DNA from: Alphaproteobacteria bacterium
GTDB lineage: Bacteria > Pseudomonadota > Alphaproteobacteria > UBA6615
DNA: 64,000 nucleotides
Direction of reading: 5' to 3'
Assembly (NCBI GenBank): GCA_039980135.1
Contig: JBDXCV010000003.1
Span: 930,001 to 994,000 of the forward strand
Shown: piece by piece, positions 2,088-52,319 of the stretch
How positions within the stretch are numbered: the first letter of the stretch is position 1
Layout of the letters: every line of letters begins with the position of its first letter
Made by a program: the position numbers and the translations under genes
Notes under the pieces: model-generated
The model's input: the letters and a program-made list of their open reading frames with translations, nothing else
Told to the model about the DNA's origin: nothing
The model's database searches: none

Positions 2088-4412
2088 GTGAACGAAATTA
2101 CCGCGCGTTACGGCAGCGACGATGATGCGCTGCGCAGCGAGGACGTGCCGCTCCTGACGGGAGCCGGGCGCTTCACCGACGACATCAACATTTCCGGCCA
2201 GGCCTACGGCGCCTTCGTGCGGTCGCCGGTCGCCCACGGCGTCCTGCGCGGGGTCGATGGCGCGGCGGCGCTGGCAATGCCCGGCGTGCTGGCGGTGATC
2301 ACCGGCGCGGACCTCAAGGCCGCGGGGCTGGGCGATATCCCACCGGCGATCAGCTTTCCCGGTAGGGACGGCATGACCATGGCGTCCGCACCCAAGCCGG
2401 TGCTCGCCTATGAAAAAGTCCGCCATGCGGGCGAGGCGGTGGCGCTGGTCGTCGCCGACACGGCGGCCCGGGCGGCGGATGCCGCCGAGGCGGTCATTCT
2501 CGATATCGAGGACCTGCCGGCGGTTCCCGGCGTGGCCGATGCGATGGCGGATGGTGCGGCCCAGGTCTGGGAGAGTGCCGCCGGGAATGTCGCCTTCGAA
2601 TGGGAACATGGCGACAATGATGCGGTGAAATCGGCGTTCGACACCGCAGCGCATGTCGCGCGCGTGGAGCTTCTGGACACGCGCCTCGCGCCGGTCTCCA
2701 TGGAGCCGCGCGGCGGCATTGGCGAATGGGACGAAGGTCTCGGCCGCTACACGCTGACCGCCCCGACCCAGGGTGTCGGGCTGGTCTCCAAGATGTTCGC
2801 GGCCCAGGTGTTTAATGTGGAACCCGATCAGTTGCGGGTGCTGACCCATGATGTGGGCGGCGGCTTCGGCATGAAGGCGCATCCCTATCCCGAATATGCC
2901 GCGATCCTGTTTGCCGCGCGCCAGGTGGGGCAGCCGGTCAAATGGTGCAACTCGCGGCTGGAGAGCTTCCTCGCTGACACGGCGGGCCGCGACACGCTGA
3001 TCACGGCCGAGATGGCGTTCGACGGGGACGGCGTGATCACCGGCCTGCGCGTCGATAACCGGGTCGGGATGGGCGCGTATCTCACCACCTTCTCCGCCGT
3101 GTTCGCGACCAACAACACCAAGAACTGCCTCGCGAGCGTCTACACGATCCCGGCGATCCATATCGACGTGACCATGACCCTGACCAACACCGCGCCGCTG
3201 GGGCCGTATCGGGGTGCGGGGCGGCCCGAGGCGATCATCGCCATCGAGCAATTGCTGGACAAGGGCGCATCCGAAATGGGTCTCGACCGGGTCGAGATTC
3301 GCCGCCGCAACCTGATCAAACCCAAGGCGATGCCCTACACGACGCCGAACGGGCCGATATACGATTCCGGCGAGTTCGAGGCCTGCCTCGACTCCGCACT
3401 GGCGCTCGCCGACTGGGACGGGTTCCCATCGCGCCGGGCAGCGTCCGAGGCAGCCGGGAAGCTTCGCGGGATCGGCATCGCGTGTTTCCTGGAGGTCGCC
3501 GGCGGCATTCTGGAGGAGACCGCCGATCTGCGATTCGAGGGTGACGGTTACGCGACCGTGCGCCTCGGGGTGCAGGCCATGGGGCAGAGCCATCTGTCCA
3601 CCTACACAAGGCTGATCGCCGACCGGCTGGGCATCCCGCCGTCGAAGGTGCGGCTGATCGAGGGCGACAGCCTGGAGGCGCCGCCGGGCACACCTTCGGT
3701 GGCGTCCCGCTCGATGATGATGGCAGGCAGCGCCATGGCCATGTCCTGCGACACCGCGATAGAGAAGGGCCGCGCGCTGGCGGGGCACGTGCTCGAGGCG
3801 GCGGCGGCGGATATCGAGTTCGACGCGGGCGCGTTCCGGATCAGGGGCACCGACAGGACGATCGGCATTCTCGAACTGGCGGATCAGATATCTACGCTGG
3901 CGCTACCGGAAGAACTCGCGGGCGGGCTCGACGCGCGGGAATTGTTCGAATCGCCCCAGATGACGTTTCCCAACGGCTGTCACATCTGTGAAGTCGAAAT
4001 CGATTCCGACACGGGCACACTCGATGTCGCGCGTTACGCGGCGGTCGACGATGTGGGCAACGTGTTCGACGAGATGGTGGTCGAGGGCCAGATTCACGGC
4101 GGCATCGCCCAGGGGCTGGGCCAGGTGCTCGGCGAGTGCGTCGTCTATGACGCGGACGGCCAGCTCATGACCGCGTCGTTCATGGATTACTTGATGCCCC
4201 GCGCCGACGATCTGCCGATGCTCGATGTCGGCCACCATTCGGTGCCGGCGACGACGAATCCATTGGGTGCGAAGGGTGCGGGCGAGTCCGGCGTGGCCGG
4301 GGCGCTGCCGTCGGGCATGGCGGCGGTGGCCGACGCGCTGGCCAGCGCGGGCAAGGGGCCGATCGATCTGCCGATGACGCCGGCGCGCATCTGGGCCGCG
4401 CTTCAGGACTAA
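2088..4412 (+). CDS. xanthine dehydrogenase-family molybdopterin-binding large subunit (CoxL/AorB-like)
   Basis: This 774-residue molybdenum hydroxylase large subunit has a GTG start directly after a strong GGGGGAGGA site. Features seen are D-V-G-G-G-F-G-M-K, the active-site loop P-Y-R-G-A-G-R (373-379), and the C-terminal G-A-K-G-A-G-E-S-G with the presumed catalytic Glu733. P-Y-R-G-A-G-R matches the form II (AYRGAGR) group, not true CO dehydrogenase (AYRCSFR), so CO oxidation is not implied; an aldehyde or N-heterocycle is a likelier substrate. The usual partners, a 2Fe-2S small subunit and an FAD medium subunit, are absent nearby. It is followed after 11 bases by a dienelactone hydrolase gene, so it is probably co-transcribed with it. 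Confidence 0.88.
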   Translation: MNEITARYGSDDDALRSEDVPLLTGAGRFTDDINISGQAYGAFVRSPVAHGVLRGVDGAAALAMPGVLAVITGADLKAAGLGDIPPAISFPGRDGMTMASAPKPVLAYEKVRHAGEAVALVVADTAARAADAAEAVILDIEDLPAVPGVADAMADGAAQVWESAAGNVAFEWEHGDNDAVKSAFDTAAHVARVELLDTRLAPVSMEPRGGIGEWDEGLGRYTLTAPTQGVGLVSKMFAAQVFNVEPDQLRVLTHDVGGGFGMKAHPYPEYAAILFAARQVGQPVKWCNSRLESFLADTAGRDTLITAEMAFDGDGVITGLRVDNRVGMGAYLTTFSAVFATNNTKNCLASVYTIPAIHIDVTMTLTNTAPLGPYRGAGRPEAIIAIEQLLDKGASEMGLDRVEIRRRNLIKPKAMPYTTPNGPIYDSGEFEACLDSALALADWDGFPSRRAASEAAGKLRGIGIACFLEVAGGILEETADLRFEGDGYATVRLGVQAMGQSHLSTYTRLIADRLGIPPSKVRLIEGDSLEAPPGTPSVASRSMMMAGSAMAMSCDTAIEKGRALAGHVLEAAAADIEFDAGAFRIRGTDRTIGILELADQISTLALPEELAGGLDARELFESPQMTFPNGCHICEVEIDSDTGTLDVARYAAVDDVGNVFDEMVVEGQIHGGIAQGLGQVLGECVVYDADGQLMTASFMDYLMPRADDLPMLDVGHHSVPATTNPLGAKGAGESGVAGALPSGMAAVADALASAGKGPIDLPMTPARIWAALQD

Positions 4413-44490: not shown

Positions 44491-46818
44491 TCAGGCGCGG
44501 GCTTCCGCGATCGCCCGCCAGACCCGGTCGGGCGTTGCGGGCATGTCGAGATCCTCGACCCCGACCTCCGCGAGCGCGTTCATAACCGCGTTCATCATGG
44601 CCGGTAGTGCCCCCACGGTGCCGGCCTCGCCCGCACCCTTGACGCCCAGCGGGTTGCGCTGGGTCGGGACGCCGTTGCCGACAATCTCGATGTCGGGGAG
44701 ATTGTCTGCGCGCGGCATCGCATAGTCCATGAACGACCCGCTCAGCAACTGGCCGCTGTCGGGATCGTAGACCACCTGCTCCATGAGCACCTGGCCGAGC
44801 CCCTGGGCGATCCCGCCATGGATCTGACCCTTCACGATGGTCGGGTTGACCATAATGCCGACGTCATCGACCACCCAGTAGCCGACCGGCGTCACGACGC
44901 CCGTGTCCGGATCGATCTCGACCTCGCAGACATGGCTGCCGTTGGGATAGGTGTCGTCCTCGGGAGAGAATGTCGCGGTCTCGTAGAGCCCCGGCTCGAT
45001 GCCCGCCGGTAGCCTGGCGGGCATGAACGAGGCCTTGGCCACTTCCTTCAGGGTGATTGTCTTGTCCGTGCCGGCGATCGTGAAGATGCCGTCGGCAAAT
45101 TCAAGATCGGCGCCGTCGGCTTCGAGCAGGTGGGCCGCGATCCGGCGTGCCTTGTCGATCACTTTCTCGGAGGCGTAGTAGAGCGCCGACCCGCCGATTA
45201 CTGTTGAGCGTGAACCCATCGTGCCGATGCCGAAGGCGACCCGGTCGGTGTCGCCGTCGATGACACGTACTTCACGCGGGTCGAGGCCGAGCCGCTCGCC
45301 GACGATCTGCTTGTACATGGTTTCATGGCCCTGGCCCTGGCTCTTGGTGCCCATCAGGACCGTGGCGCTGCCGTCGGTGTTGAATCGCACCTCAGCGAAA
45401 TCCGGTGACGGTGATCCCGCCCGCTCGATCGGGTTGGAGATGCCGATCCCCCGGAGTTTTCCGCGCGCGGATGAATCCTCGCGCCGTGCCGCGAAGCCGG
45501 CATAGTCGGCCATCTCCAGGGCCTTCGCCTGGTTTTCCGTGAAAGCGCCGCAATCATAGGAAAGGCCGAGCGCCGTTTTCACCGGCATCGCGTCTGACGC
45601 GATCATGTTCCGGGCGCGCAATTCGGCCGGGTCGACACCCAATTCGCGTGCGGATTCGTCGAACATGCGTTCGATCACGAAAGTCGCCTCGGGCCGTCCC
45701 GCGCCGCGATAAGGCGCGGTCGGGTTGGTGTTCGAATGTACCGTGCGCACGGTCACATGCGCTGCCGGGATGTCGTACACCCCGATCAGGGTGCCCACAT
45801 TGGCGAATACCGACAGCAGGTTCCGGATCGCCGAGAGATAGGCGCCGATATTCGCAATCGTGCTGACCCGCAGGCCGATCACATTGTTGTCGGCATCGAA
45901 GGCGAGTTCGGCCTCCGTGACATTGTCGCGGCCATGCTCATCGGCCTGGACGGCCTCGCTGCGTTCGCAATTCCATTTCACGGGGCGACCGATCTTGCGC
46001 GATGCCCACAGCACCAGCCGGTGCTCGGCATACTGCCAGCCCTTGGTGCCGAAGCCGCCGCCCACGTCGCGCGCCACAACCCGCATCGCCTGCTCGGGGA
46101 TGCCGAAAATCTTCTCCGACAGGAGCTGGCGGACGCGATGGGGGTATTGGACGTCGGCATGCAGGGTGTAGCGGTCTTCGTGCTCGTCATAGGTGCCGAT
46201 GGCGCCGCGCGGCTCCATATACTGGGCGAAAACCCGGCTGATGACGAAGCGGCGTTTCACGATGCGCGCGGCGTTTGCGAAGGCGGCTTCCACGGCGTCG
46301 GCGTCGCCCGCCTGGAACTGGCCCGAGACGTTGTCGGAGGAATCGTCCCACACGAGCGCCGCATCGGGTTCGACGGTTTTCGCGGTGTCGGTGATCGAGG
46401 GCAGGTCCTGATAGTCCACATCGATCAGTTCGGCGGCATCACGTGCCTGATTGAGGGTGTCGGCGACGACCAGCGCCACGGGGTCGCCCACATAGCGCAC
46501 GCGGCCCAGCGCCAGCGGCGGCTGCGGGCGATACTTCATGGGTTCGCCGTCGGGGCGCTTCCACTTGGCGGGCATGCCGGGAACGCCCAGATTGTCCGCG
46601 GCGACTTCCTCGCCCGTGAATACCCCCTGTACGCCGGGCGCGGCCTTGGCTGCCGTTGTGTCGATCGACCGGATTTCGGCATGGGCGTAGGGCGATCGCA
46701 GCAGGATCGCGTATGTCTGGCCGGGAAGGTTCACATCGTTTGTGAACAGCCCGCGTCCGCGCAGGAGTCGCGGGTCTTCCTCGCGGCGCACAGCCTGACC
46801 AACACCGAATTTTTCCAT
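44491..46818 (-). CDS. xanthine dehydrogenase-family molybdopterin-binding large subunit (CoxL-like)
   Basis: This 775-residue molybdenum hydroxylase is the second in the window. GGAGAG precedes the ATG. Features are Y-M-E-P-R-G-A, D-V-G-G-G-F-G-T-K-G, the form II-type loop P-Y-R-G-A-G-R (369-375), and C-terminal G-V-K-G-A-G-E-A-G with the catalytic Glu. It lacks the AYRCSFR loop of true CO dehydrogenase. No iron-sulfur or FAD subunit genes are adjacent, so partner subunits must come from elsewhere. It is convergent with the urease operon. Confidence 0.9.
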   Translation of the reverse strand: MEKFGVGQAVRREEDPRLLRGRGLFTNDVNLPGQTYAILLRSPYAHAEIRSIDTTAAKAAPGVQGVFTGEEVAADNLGVPGMPAKWKRPDGEPMKYRPQPPLALGRVRYVGDPVALVVADTLNQARDAAELIDVDYQDLPSITDTAKTVEPDAALVWDDSSDNVSGQFQAGDADAVEAAFANAARIVKRRFVISRVFAQYMEPRGAIGTYDEHEDRYTLHADVQYPHRVRQLLSEKIFGIPEQAMRVVARDVGGGFGTKGWQYAEHRLVLWASRKIGRPVKWNCERSEAVQADEHGRDNVTEAELAFDADNNVIGLRVSTIANIGAYLSAIRNLLSVFANVGTLIGVYDIPAAHVTVRTVHSNTNPTAPYRGAGRPEATFVIERMFDESARELGVDPAELRARNMIASDAMPVKTALGLSYDCGAFTENQAKALEMADYAGFAARREDSSARGKLRGIGISNPIERAGSPSPDFAEVRFNTDGSATVLMGTKSQGQGHETMYKQIVGERLGLDPREVRVIDGDTDRVAFGIGTMGSRSTVIGGSALYYASEKVIDKARRIAAHLLEADGADLEFADGIFTIAGTDKTITLKEVAKASFMPARLPAGIEPGLYETATFSPEDDTYPNGSHVCEVEIDPDTGVVTPVGYWVVDDVGIMVNPTIVKGQIHGGIAQGLGQVLMEQVVYDPDSGQLLSGSFMDYAMPRADNLPDIEIVGNGVPTQRNPLGVKGAGEAGTVGALPAMMNAVMNALAEVGVEDLDMPATPDRVWRAIAEARA

Positions 46819-46953: not shown

Positions 46954-47790
46954 TCAACCGTCCGGCTTGACGATCCTGTTGGTCAGGGTACCGATGCCGT
47001 CGATCGTGACCGTCACGACATCGCCATCATCGAGCGAAGAGGTGCGCCCCGGGGTCCCCATGAAGATCATGTCCCCGGGGTTGAGGGTGAAATACCGGCT
47101 CAGATAGCTGACGACTCTGGCCGGTTTGTGGATCATGTTCCGGGTGTTTTCCTGCTGCACGATCTCACCGTTCAGTCGGGTCGTGAGCAGCACGTTGTTT
47201 GGGTCGAGCCCCGTGACCAGGGCGGGACCCACGGGCCCGAACCCGTCCGCGGCTTTGGCGCGCATCCATTGCAGGTCGCGGCCCTGCCAGCTGCGTTCGG
47301 TCAGGTCGTTGCCGGCGGTCAGGCCGAATACGTAGCCCATGGCATCGGCCTCGGACACATTCTTGGCCGACTTTCCGATGACCAAAACCAGCTCGCCCTC
47401 GAAATGCACGTTGTTTGCATCCGGCGGTAGCTCAATGTCGCTACCGCTGCCCGTGAGGGAAGTGGGAAGTTTCAGGAACAGCGGCGGCGGGCGATCCGAT
47501 GCGGAGGAGATATGACTGGCGAAGTTCATGCCGACGGCGAAGACCTTGCCCGCATCGGACGGCGGCAGAAGTTTCACGCTGTCGAGCGCGACGGTCTGCC
47601 CGGTCGGTTTTGCCCCCGTGATCGGGTCGCCGTCGAGCGTCGCGATACTGGTGCCGTTCAACTCGCCGTATGAGACCTGCCCGTTGAGGTTGAAGCGGAC
47701 ATATTTGGTGGTCGCGTCCTGCGCCACGGCAAGGGGACCGGCGGCGATCAGGGCAAGTGCGAGAATTCCGGGAACCAGGACCGAGCGCAT
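46954..47790 (-). CDS. FAH-family hydrolase with Sec signal peptide
   Basis: The protein has 278 residues. Residues 1-23 form a classic Sec signal (basic start, long hydrophobic core with A-L-A-L-I-A-A, A-V-A cleavage site). The mature part is a complete FAH domain: metal Glu pair in H-F-E-G-E-L-V-L-V-I-G-K, the Asp of T-A-G-N-D-L-T-E, Q-G-R-D-L-Q-W, and the C-terminal G-D-M-I-F-M-G-T-P. FAH enzymes are normally cytosolic, so an exported one is unusual. It is divergent, 100 bases away, from an amidohydrolase gene that also encodes a signal peptide. Confidence 0.85.
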   Translation of the reverse strand: MRSVLVPGILALALIAAGPLAVAQDATTKYVRFNLNGQVSYGELNGTSIATLDGDPITGAKPTGQTVALDSVKLLPPSDAGKVFAVGMNFASHISSASDRPPPLFLKLPTSLTGSGSDIELPPDANNVHFEGELVLVIGKSAKNVSEADAMGYVFGLTAGNDLTERSWQGRDLQWMRAKAADGFGPVGPALVTGLDPNNVLLTTRLNGEIVQQENTRNMIHKPARVVSYLSRYFTLNPGDMIFMGTPGRTSSLDDGDVVTVTIDGIGTLTNRIVKPDG

Positions 47791-47890
47791 CGCGGCGTCT
47801 CCGCATGTGAGGTGGAAGTATCCTTTAATCGACGAAAACTAGCATGGGTTGCATGTTGCGCCATCCCGCTGCGCGCGGCAGGATCGAAGC

Positions 47891-48757
47891 ATGAAATTCG
47901 ACATGAATAAGCTTGCTCGGCTGCTGGCGGCGGGAACCGTAATCGCCACGTTCCCGTCCCTTGTGCACGGGGACGAACCCCTCCCCGTCTTCGACGGACA
48001 TGTGCACTACAACGAGGATGCGACGGTCGCCTATAGCCCGGCCCGGATCGTCGAGAAGATGCACGCGGCGGGGGTGCCCCGCGCGCTCGTGTCGAGCACG
48101 TCGGACGACAACACGCTGGCCCTGCTTGAAGAGGGCGGGCCCGGGCTGGTCGTCCCGTTCCTGCGTCCCTATGGCGGACAAATCCATTCGGGCAACTGGT
48201 ATCGGCATCCCGACACGCTTGCCTATCTGCAATCCCGCTGGGACCCGGATCGCTACGCCGGGATCGGCGAGTTCCACCTCCACCAGCTCGCCGGTGCGGA
48301 CAGCGCGATCGTTCGCGCCGTGGCGCAAATGACGACCGACGCGGGACGGATGTTGCATGTGCATGCGGATTCCAGGGTGATCGAGGCCATCTTTTCACAC
48401 ACGCCGGACGCCCGCATTCTTTGGGCGCATGCGGGTATGGTCGATCCGCCGGAGGTCATTGCGCAGACCCTAGAGGCCCATGAAAATCTCTGGGCGGAGA
48501 TTTCGATCCGGGGGTACGAGATTTTCCCGGGTGGCGCGATCAATACGGACTGGCGCGAACTGTTCCTGGCCTATCCCGATCGCTTTCTGACGGCATCCGA
48601 TACCTATGTGACCGAACGCTGGGACGAGTATGCGCGGGTCATCGACCACCATCGCGGCTGGCTGGCCCAGCTGCCGACGGATATTGCGCGCGGAATCGCA
48701 TTCGGAAATGCCGTCCGCCTTTTCGGCGCGGGCGGCATCGCGGTGCTCGAGAAGTAG
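47891..48757 (+). CDS. amidohydrolase family protein with signal peptide
   Basis: The protein has 288 residues from the ATG at 47891. Residues 1-27 look like a Sec signal (K/R-containing start, L-A-R-L-L-A-A-G-T-V-I-A-T-F core, V-H-G before D-E-P). The mature barrel has the H-x-H metal motif F-D-G-H-V-H, H-V-H-A-D-S, W-A-H-A-G-M and a late S-D-T-Y Asp, as in amidohydrolase family 2. It is predicted periplasmic; the substrate is unknown. The divergent FAH neighbour is exported too. Confidence 0.82.
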   Translation: MKFDMNKLARLLAAGTVIATFPSLVHGDEPLPVFDGHVHYNEDATVAYSPARIVEKMHAAGVPRALVSSTSDDNTLALLEEGGPGLVVPFLRPYGGQIHSGNWYRHPDTLAYLQSRWDPDRYAGIGEFHLHQLAGADSAIVRAVAQMTTDAGRMLHVHADSRVIEAIFSHTPDARILWAHAGMVDPPEVIAQTLEAHENLWAEISIRGYEIFPGGAINTDWRELFLAYPDRFLTASDTYVTERWDEYARVIDHHRGWLAQLPTDIARGIAFGNAVRLFGAGGIAVLEK

Positions 48758-51218: not shown

Positions 51219-51533
51219 GTGTTCGCAAACGGGGCTGGGGCGAAGTGTGCAGCAACCATTCTACATCGGCGGGCGCCGTGACGGACAGACCGGCAGATGA
51301 AATACCGCTTGGGAGAATTCGACGCGCGGCAGGCGGCTCGATATCTCTTTCAATCCGGACGACCACGAAAGTGAATAATCGGCGGGTATGGTCCGTGCGT
51401 CTCCCCAATCGACCCGTCACGGTCATCGACGAGATCTTGACGTTTCCGCTCTTGTTGCCTGAGATGAGTATCCGGTTCAGGCCCAATTGTGCATCGGAGC
51501 GAATGCCGCCTGCCGTCCAGGAAGGGTCTGTAT
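51219..51533. other. Gap without a supported gene
   Basis: No credible gene, hairpin or repeat is seen. Open frames cross it on both strands, but they lack ribosome-binding sites and recognisable motifs. It holds the divergent promoters of the MFS gene and the secreted hydrolase. Confidence 0.5.
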
Positions 51534-52319
51534 ATGTTGCTTCAACCGATCGTGCGTCGATTCGAAACGATGCTGGCCTTCGCCTTCGTTGCCGCTGGCT
51601 TCGTCCTGCTGGATTCGGCGCGCGCTGACTCTGAAACCATCCCGACCCGCCCCGGCGTGACGGTGCCGTTCGAAATTGACGTGCCAAGCGGCGCGCCGGC
51701 CATCGTGTTGATCTTCGAGGGGGGTGGCGGAAGCATCGAGCGGCGGGCCTTCGGCTGGGAGATACACGAGCTGCTGGTCGATGACGGGATAGGCGCCGCC
51801 TCGATCGGGGCGCCATCAGATCAGCATGGTTTCCTGGGCGGCATGCACCCGAGCTTCCGCGCGACGGACCAGCACGTGGACGATATCGATATTGTCCTGG
51901 GGGCGATCGTGTCGGAGTATGATCTGCCGATCTGGGTTTTTGGTGTCAGCATGGGCGCGGCCTCGGCCGCCATGTACGGACTGCGCCGTTCCGGGCGGGT
52001 TGCGGGGGTCGTTCTGGCTTCCAGCCCGACGCGCCCTCCACGTGGCCTTGGGGTGCACGAGCTTCCGCTGGACCAGATCACCGTGCCGCTTCTTGCCGTT
52101 GCGCATGCCGATGACGGGTGCCCGGGTACGCCGCCAACGGGCGCGCAGGAAATAGTAAACGCGGCAAGTTCTTCACCCAATGCCAGAGCAAGAATATTCT
52201 CTGGCGGTGACTCGGCAGGGTGGAGCCCATGCCGGCCTCGCAGCCACCATACGTTCTACCGGATAGAGCGCGAGGTTGGTCGTGCAGTCGCAGACTTCAT
52301 CAAGTCGAATACACCCTGA
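51534..52319 (+). CDS. secreted alpha/beta hydrolase-like protein
   Basis: The protein has 261 residues from the ATG at 51534 after AGGAAGGG. A hydrophobic N-terminal segment (about residues 13-29, ending S-A-R-A before D-S-E) is probably a signal peptide. The nucleophile elbow G-V-S-M-G-A-A carries the presumed Ser; the acid is in A-D-D-G-C-P-G and the base in R-S-H-H-T-F. Only the general esterase/lipase fold can be assigned; a Dlh-like or poly-ester hydrolase role is possible. It is convergent with hyuB. Confidence 0.68.
   Translation: MLLQPIVRRFETMLAFAFVAAGFVLLDSARADSETIPTRPGVTVPFEIDVPSGAPAIVLIFEGGGGSIERRAFGWEIHELLVDDGIGAASIGAPSDQHGFLGGMHPSFRATDQHVDDIDIVLGAIVSEYDLPIWVFGVSMGAASAAMYGLRRSGRVAGVVLASSPTRPPRGLGVHELPLDQITVPLLAVAHADDGCPGTPPTGAQEIVNAASSSPNARARIFSGGDSAGWSPCRPRSHHTFYRIEREVGRAVADFIKSNTP

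Follow-up and report, generated by a model that had tools for sequence, protein, structure and literature searches.

A clade of FAH-fold enzymes with a serine in the lid and an amidohydrolase family, both predicted to be exported, neighbours in one alphaproteobacterial genus

The divergent gene pair and its leaders

Within the window, by which we mean the whole 64,000-nucleotide stretch analysed here (from a genome of 3.76 Mb in 15 contigs), two enzyme genes are arranged divergently. An open reading frame at 46954..47790 on the reverse strand encodes a 278-residue FAH-fold protein (P0001), and one at 47891..48757 on the forward strand encodes a 288-residue amidohydrolase (P0002). An earlier sequence-only reading of this DNA had reported the pair, and both frames were recovered where it placed them, with start codons 100 bases apart. 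The amidohydrolase start was set at the ATG at 47891; the mechanically called frame opens at a TTG at 47849. The divergent intergenic region (47791..47890) holds the ribosome sites of both genes, and its 100-base length is the same in all four genus genomes that have the pair. A sigma-70 scan of this region found no promoter-like site (0.5 expected by chance), a terminator scan found one terminator-like site, which is not above the 1.8 expected, and a short palindrome is the only other feature found in the spacer.

P0001 matches the FAA_hydrolase domain PF01557 over residues 82-274 (203.9 bits; Pfam cut-off 23.9) and, over residues 29-77, a complete Rv2993c-like_N domain (PF10370). This complete domain lies behind the leader described below, which has thus been added to an intact N-terminus of cytosolic type. 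The window genome has 17 FAH-domain matches in total, and against NCBIfam P0001 gave matches below the cut-off only. Elsewhere in the window, a gene at 44491-46818 (reverse strand) encodes, by Pfam, a molybdopterin-binding large subunit of the xanthine dehydrogenase type, and a look-alike was recognised by eye at 2088-4412 (forward strand); in the list of open reading frames, read by eye, no gene for a FAD or iron-sulphur subunit was recognised beside either.

Leaders were called by a home-made rule based on charge, hydrophobic core and cleavage site, which picks the best of several starts, a choice that favours positive calls. In P0001 the rule finds a Sec-type signal peptide of 23 codons (47722..47790, reverse strand) with predicted cleavage between AVA and Q, the leader MRSVLVPGILALALIAAGPLAVA being followed by QDATT. 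In P0002 the signal peptide spans 27 codons (47891..47971, forward strand) with predicted cleavage between VHG and D, the leader MKFDMNKLARLLAAGTVIATFPSLVHG being followed by DEPLP. By this rule n-, h- and c-regions and a signal peptidase I site are present, and they are kept in relatives. When residues 2-40 were shuffled, however, the rule was still passed in 630 of 2000 trials for P0001, against 60 of 2000 for P0002, so for P0001 the rule alone is weak and the real evidence is conservation in relatives.

That conservation is broad for both proteins, with leaders retained in relatives from several phyla. Among the FAH loci, the best 80 of 503 relatives, 75 pass the rule and 78 look leader-bearing by eye; L108, L118 and L126 were missed by the rule and appear leader-like, which leaves L158 and L174 as the only ones without a leader by eye. 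None of the 16 cytosolic FAH relatives that served as a comparison set for the rule has a leader at any start tried. In the amidohydrolase family, 30 of 34 members pass, the window protein counted; the 34 are those with a retrieved locus from 44 found, with a broken copy in one genus genome (G021) left out. Related genomes lacking the signal had been named in the sequence-only reading as the observation that would count against export, and in each of the seven further close relatives of the FAH protein that were inspected (in G021, G022, G023, G002, G011, G278 and G024) the N-terminus shows a leader by eye. Its claim of Sec-type signals on both enzymes thus holds. Its statement that such enzymes usually come without export signals is true of the superfamilies; each protein, though, sits in a broad exported subfamily, so an exported version is not special to the window.

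Purifying selection is strong on both mature proteins, with omega at 0.065 and 0.079 for the two FAH comparisons and at 0.12 and 0.16 for the two amidohydrolase ones. The leaders, at 0.35-0.53 over 25-28 codons only, drift more in sequence than the mature parts. In the AF2 model of P0001 (pLDDT 91.4) the first 20 residues have low pLDDT. Both ATGs are preceded by a Shine-Dalgarno-like GGAG or AGGA, and no such site was found before the in-frame GTG that each leader contains, which favours the upstream ATG starts. Taken as predictions from sequence, both proteins are very probably exported. A further gene in the window (51489-52319, forward strand) encodes an alpha/beta hydrolase (PF12146) with a hydrophobic leader, accepted from an internal ATG and passed by 162 of 2000 shuffles; it is likely a third exported hydrolase of the neighbourhood.

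The lid serine and the spread of the FAH clade

Alignments place the active-site residues H93, S96, E131, E133, D162, R166, Q169 and K179 of P0001 in the stretch 47254..47514 (reverse strand). In an 84-row alignment that includes two contigs entered twice and one truncated protein (L112), H93, E131 and E133 are conserved in every row, D162 in 82 rows, and R166, Q169 and K179 in 83 rows each. The exception lies in the lid: S96 occupies the position where the glutamate of the H-x-x-E motif is expected. The sequence-only reading had stated that the active-site residues remain, which is borne out for the metal ligands and for the lysine, arginine and glutamine, but not for the lid glutamate. P0001 accordingly has the marks of the FAH superfamily, namely a domain above cut-off, the fold, the E-x-E and D ligands and the lysine, while the H-x-x-E lid dyad of FAHD1-type enzymes is absent.

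The closest solved structures are enzymes of the Cg1458/HpcE type (PDB 4dbf, 3qdf, 4pfz, 1gtt), with which P0001 has fold and domain in common, at structural-alignment identities of 36-40% to 4dbf, 3qdf and 4pfz and 30% to HpcE; Foldseek matches it to 3qdf at E 9.4e-31. The metal ligands and catalytic lysine are the same. The relatives listed carry H-x-x-E (five of five solved relatives in the alignments listed) and a longer lid loop, whereas the clade of the window protein has H-x-x-S and a signal peptide. A homologous domain is found in FAHD1, YcgM and FAHD2, which act as acylpyruvase, oxaloacetate decarboxylase and oxaloacetate tautomerase. These enzymes are mitochondrial or cytosolic, and P0001 is leader-bearing.

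Residues of P0001 were matched to FAHD1 numbering by an assumed correspondence between the two sequences. On this mapping, the counterparts of FAHD1 D102, R106, Q109 and K123 are all kept in P0001, whereas the glutamate of the His30-Glu33 lid dyad is missing; D162 and R166 correspond to D102 and R106. The His-Glu pair is retained in FAHD tautomerases that have been characterised, such as YcgM, so loss of the glutamate alone is not a pointer to tautomerase chemistry. In FAHD1 the His30-Glu33 dyad is proposed to hold and position the catalytic water, and Lys123, Asp102 and Gln109 are proposed to handle the enol (PMC8398924). A study of oxaloacetate tautomerase that mutated Asp102 and Arg106 documents enol-keto tautomerase activity for FAHD enzymes (PMC10825186). 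Since P0001 keeps the ligands and enolising residues and has lost the glutamate, the machinery for binding and enolising a metal-chelated 2-oxo acid would remain and the water-activating part would be altered. Loss of the lid glutamate speaks against plain acylpyruvate hydrolysis, and we infer that the reaction may be that of a tautomerase, decarboxylase or lyase, or hydrolysis by the serine or histidine alone. The acylpyruvate or lactone substrate proposed in the sequence-only reading is a guess.

Relatives were collected by scanning one genome per species across 84,980 species, which yielded 503, of which the best 80 were used. A tree of 108 rows (80 exported-type and 28 cytosolic, with leaders trimmed and the truncated L112 dropped) was built by a quick search with no bootstrap. 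All 80 exported-type rows fall on one side of a single branch (SH-aLRT 98), and export state changes three times in all on the tree, with L158 and L174 scored as leaderless; as the 80 loci had been picked for their likeness to exported members and the outgroup of cytosolic proteins was drawn solely from the family of the window genome, a single origin of export is not firm. The window FAH lies in a 46-row clade (support 100) drawn from Alpha- and Gammaproteobacteria, Poseidonibacter and Arcobacter, and Desulforhopalus, whose members are 54-88% identical to it and all look exported. Every row of this clade has the lid motif NFxSHxxS, with serine at the position of FAHD1 Glu33. The glutamate is retained in 20 of the 34 exported-type rows outside the clade, and the remainder vary. 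In a sample of 385 genomes of the class, an exported FAH (E 1e-60 or better) was found in four. One FAH gene, in Kiloniella litopenaei, has an in-frame TGA; it is one of three broken copies seen among the loci of both families (L012, L086 and L112), the other two being the G021 amidohydrolase and an FAH remnant in G020.

A search of open-access papers for an FAH hydrolase described as periplasmic, secreted, exported or extracellular found none. Among the entries of a Ruegeria pomeroyi exoproteome are a fumarylacetoacetate hydrolase and a protein of the cyclase family (PMC5839243). What is new is the exported FAH clade with a serine lid.

Clustering of gene neighbourhoods around the best 80 of 503 FAH loci showed that context differs by lineage, with no gene context common to all 80. 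The neighbour counts, those around the amidohydrolase gene included, are lower bounds, as the home-made frame picker sometimes took antisense frames. In five of 16 Vibrio rows (L127, L136, L138, L139 and L141) the exported FAH gene comes straight after two related oligo-alginate-lyase genes, which in L127 carry Alginate_lyase and Hepar_II_III_C domains, and in a sixth Vibrio locus (L142) the lyases are farther away in the same locus. The other 74 of these best 80 loci have no lyase of this type. A cupin gene, which we take to be KdgF-like, adjoins the Vibrio lyase genes. The same identity for the cupin comes from a 2026 paper on the alginate locus of Vibrio sp. C42, whose available excerpts list an FAH protein, JFJ08_17855, as not apparently related to the use of alginate and uninvestigated, and make no mention of its export (PMC13390454). 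JFJ08_17855 lies in an alginate locus like those of the five Vibrio rows, and we infer that it is the same orthologue as the exported FAH. The window genome, in contrast, has no PF05426 alginate lyase. Alginate was accordingly ruled out as the substrate in the window organism and is not the general answer for the exported FAH.

Other lineages show other partners. A gene for a membrane-anchored LytTR regulator and one for a leader-bearing DUF1554 protein precede the FAH gene in L099, L110, L117, L119, L122, L126 and L133 (Pfam assignments from L133). In the Gemmatimonadota L152, L159 and L173, a leader-bearing PF04199 cyclase gene precedes the exported FAH gene (assignment from L152). A sulfatase was considered as a link to both families, since its gene is divergent from the amidohydrolase gene in G002 and G011 and lies about 9 kb from the FAH gene in G024, and was set aside as too thin.

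The amidohydrolase and its association with the FAH gene

P0002 carries the Amidohydro_2 domain PF04909 (37.9 bits; cut-off 26.4), a domain that was matched, at E 0.01 or better, by 31 of the 32 rows of its family. The TatD domain PF01026 is matched at 0.01 by four of the 32 rows, the window protein not among them, and no NCBIfam match to P0002 was obtained at 0.001. Residues H37, H39, E127, H158, H180 and D237 are invariant across all 32 rows, and the AF2 model (mean pLDDT 90) is an amidohydrolase barrel. A single-sequence search of solved structures with P0002 gave no credible match; the family profile alone gave one, to solved TatD DNases (E 1.5e-05). Structural comparison ties P0002 to TatD-like, COG3618 lactonase-like and decarboxylase structures. 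The barrel is that of the TatD-type and COG3618 lactonase-type enzymes (PDB 3cjp, 3rcm, 4do7, 2ffi; VIA Z 18.8-21.9), from which P0002 differs in its predicted export and in an identity of at most 18% among the matches listed. In the profile alignment E127 aligns with the glutamate of the TatD GE motif, which is a metal ligand, and this suggests a two-metal centre in P0002.

Among other alphaproteobacteria, the amidohydrolase was located in 30 of 53 neighbourhoods, some of the 53 having been taken for the FAH gene alone, and a gene of a CCP_MauG-type di-haem peroxidase family (Pfam assignment from one member) lies at most three genes away in 11 of the 30. In L184, L189, L202, L207 and others, the amidohydrolase gene is often followed by genes for a protein of about 140 residues and a CCP_MauG di-haem peroxidase. 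The protein of about 140 residues has a leader and no Pfam match, and is presumably YtkA/FixH-like. The arrangement looks like a periplasmic operon; a literature search on it found no paper.

The sequence-only reading had proposed a search for conserved co-occurrence of the pair. Divergent adjacency was found in four of seven genus genomes (the window genome, G021, G022 and G023), with a spacer of 100 bases in each; in G023 the FAH gene reaches the contig end and its remainder is on another contig. Unless the assembly is in error, a 46-base deletion in the G021 amidohydrolase takes away the last part of the leader together with the first histidine of the HxH motif and puts the rest of the gene out of frame; the FAH gene beside it is intact. 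Of the other three genomes, G018 and G019 have neither gene, and G020 lacks the amidohydrolase and has a remnant of the FAH gene within the same flanks. The gene adjoining that remnant encodes a thiamine-diphosphate enzyme. G002 and G011 belong to two further genera of the family; each carries both genes, on separate contigs, the amidohydrolase among other genes.

Across the family, the exported FAH (E <1e-80) and the amidohydrolase (E <1e-70) occur in the same six of 24 genomes, so that presence and absence agree in all 24 if a weak match (41%) in G008 is set aside. Full agreement would arise by chance once in 134,596 cases (7 in 134,596 with G008 included), a figure that ignores kinship among these genomes. 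The shared presence argues for some link between the two genes within the family, though the genomes are close kin. Beyond the family the association fades. Of the 385 class genomes sampled, 44 have the amidohydrolase (E 1e-40 or better) and two, the window genome and one genus mate, have both genes. An amidohydrolase homologue (1e-20) occurs in 13 of 78 other FAH-bearing genomes, one of the 13 being G011, from the family of the window genome. Because neighbour counts are lower bounds, a tblastn against the best 80 of 503 FAH loci (43 of them at least 20 kb, the 37 shorter ones lying where contigs end) was used to recheck whether FAH genes have the amidohydrolase nearby, and it was found in the genus members L096 and L097 only. 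The pair is adjacent within one genus, once with a broken amidohydrolase, and the other loci among these 80 lack the amidohydrolase, which does not bear out a conserved one-pathway unit. Both families are broadly distributed and appear to have spread independently. A pathway link in this genus is possible; it is not a general feature.

Candidate functions of the two probably exported enzymes

We consider it probable, with moderate confidence, that the locus brings together two exported families that are neighbours in one genus, one a 2-oxo-acid enzyme of the FAH fold with an altered lid and the other an amidohydrolase with a substrate of its own. On this reading the FAH protein would pass to the periplasm through the Sec pathway and fold there as a normal FAH-fold enzyme. 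A divalent metal would be bound through E131, E133 and D162, and a small 2-oxo acid would be enolised with the help of Lys179, Arg166 and Gln169. Since the lid glutamate is a serine in every row of the clade, a reaction of the enol-keto tautomerase, decarboxylase or lyase type would be expected over plain acylpyruvate hydrolysis. The amidohydrolase would be a periplasmic metal-dependent hydrolase from the TatD- and lactonase-like part of the amidohydrolase superfamily, acting on a separate substrate. Leaders, their conservation, family membership, active-site residues and distribution can be read directly from the data, and the location, metal, reaction and substrate of both enzymes are proposals built on them.

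One alternative, near to what the sequence-only reading suggested, joins the two enzymes in a single periplasmic pathway, co-expressed from the divergent region, in which a lactone or amide is opened by the amidohydrolase to give a 2-oxo acid that the FAH enzyme then cleaves or tautomerises. The divergent adjacency with its constant spacer in four of seven genus genomes and the joint presence or absence across the 24 family genomes, with the weak G008 match set aside, speak for it. Against it, the genes stand on different contigs in G002 and G011, the FAH gene of G021 is intact beside a broken amidohydrolase, and no locus outside the genus among the best 80 of 503 has the amidohydrolase nearby; the 13 of 78 FAH-bearing genomes outside the genus with a homologue compare with the 44 of 385 that a stricter cut-off gives for the class. 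We regard the shared pathway as unlikely. Another view, to which we also give little weight, sees in P0001 a standard acylpyruvate hydrolase or oxaloacetate decarboxylase whose only peculiarity is to work outside the cytosol, Ser96 being harmless. The remaining examined active-site residues are kept, as this would require, and the fold matches 3qdf, 4pfz and Cg1458 with TM-scores of 0.82-0.84 over the query. However, all 46 clade members, at 54-88% identity to the window protein, carry the serine inside a shared lid motif, which indicates a position selected for something other than glutamate, and the FAHD1 model gives the dyad the task of positioning the catalytic water (PMC8398924).

It is very improbable, finally, that the leaders go unused and that both proteins start internally and stay in the cytosol. 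In-frame GTGs at codon 22 of the FAH gene and codon 25 of the amidohydrolase gene would permit such starts, and a shuffled FAH leader passes the rule easily, but these GTGs lack a ribosome site where the ATGs have good ones, and the leaders are retained across several phyla and absent from all 16 cytosolic relatives.

Of the two families kept apart in the reading we prefer, the FAH clade invites a more tentative extension. The serine-lid proteins may form a distinct periplasmic FAH class with a reaction of its own, for example the tautomerisation or cleavage of 2-oxo sugar acids derived from unsaturated uronates. The FAH fold is usually studied in cytosolic or mitochondrial enzymes of aromatic degradation and TCA-cycle repair. 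If the extended reading is true, some 2-oxo acid chemistry usually assigned to the cytosol would, in Pseudomonadota and related bacteria, take place on the outer side of the inner membrane. The exported serine-lid clade makes both the role of the lid glutamate and the question of whether the periplasm hosts 2-oxo acid chemistry testable, and the repeated position of the FAH gene beside Vibrio oligo-alginate lyases offers a first substrate lead.
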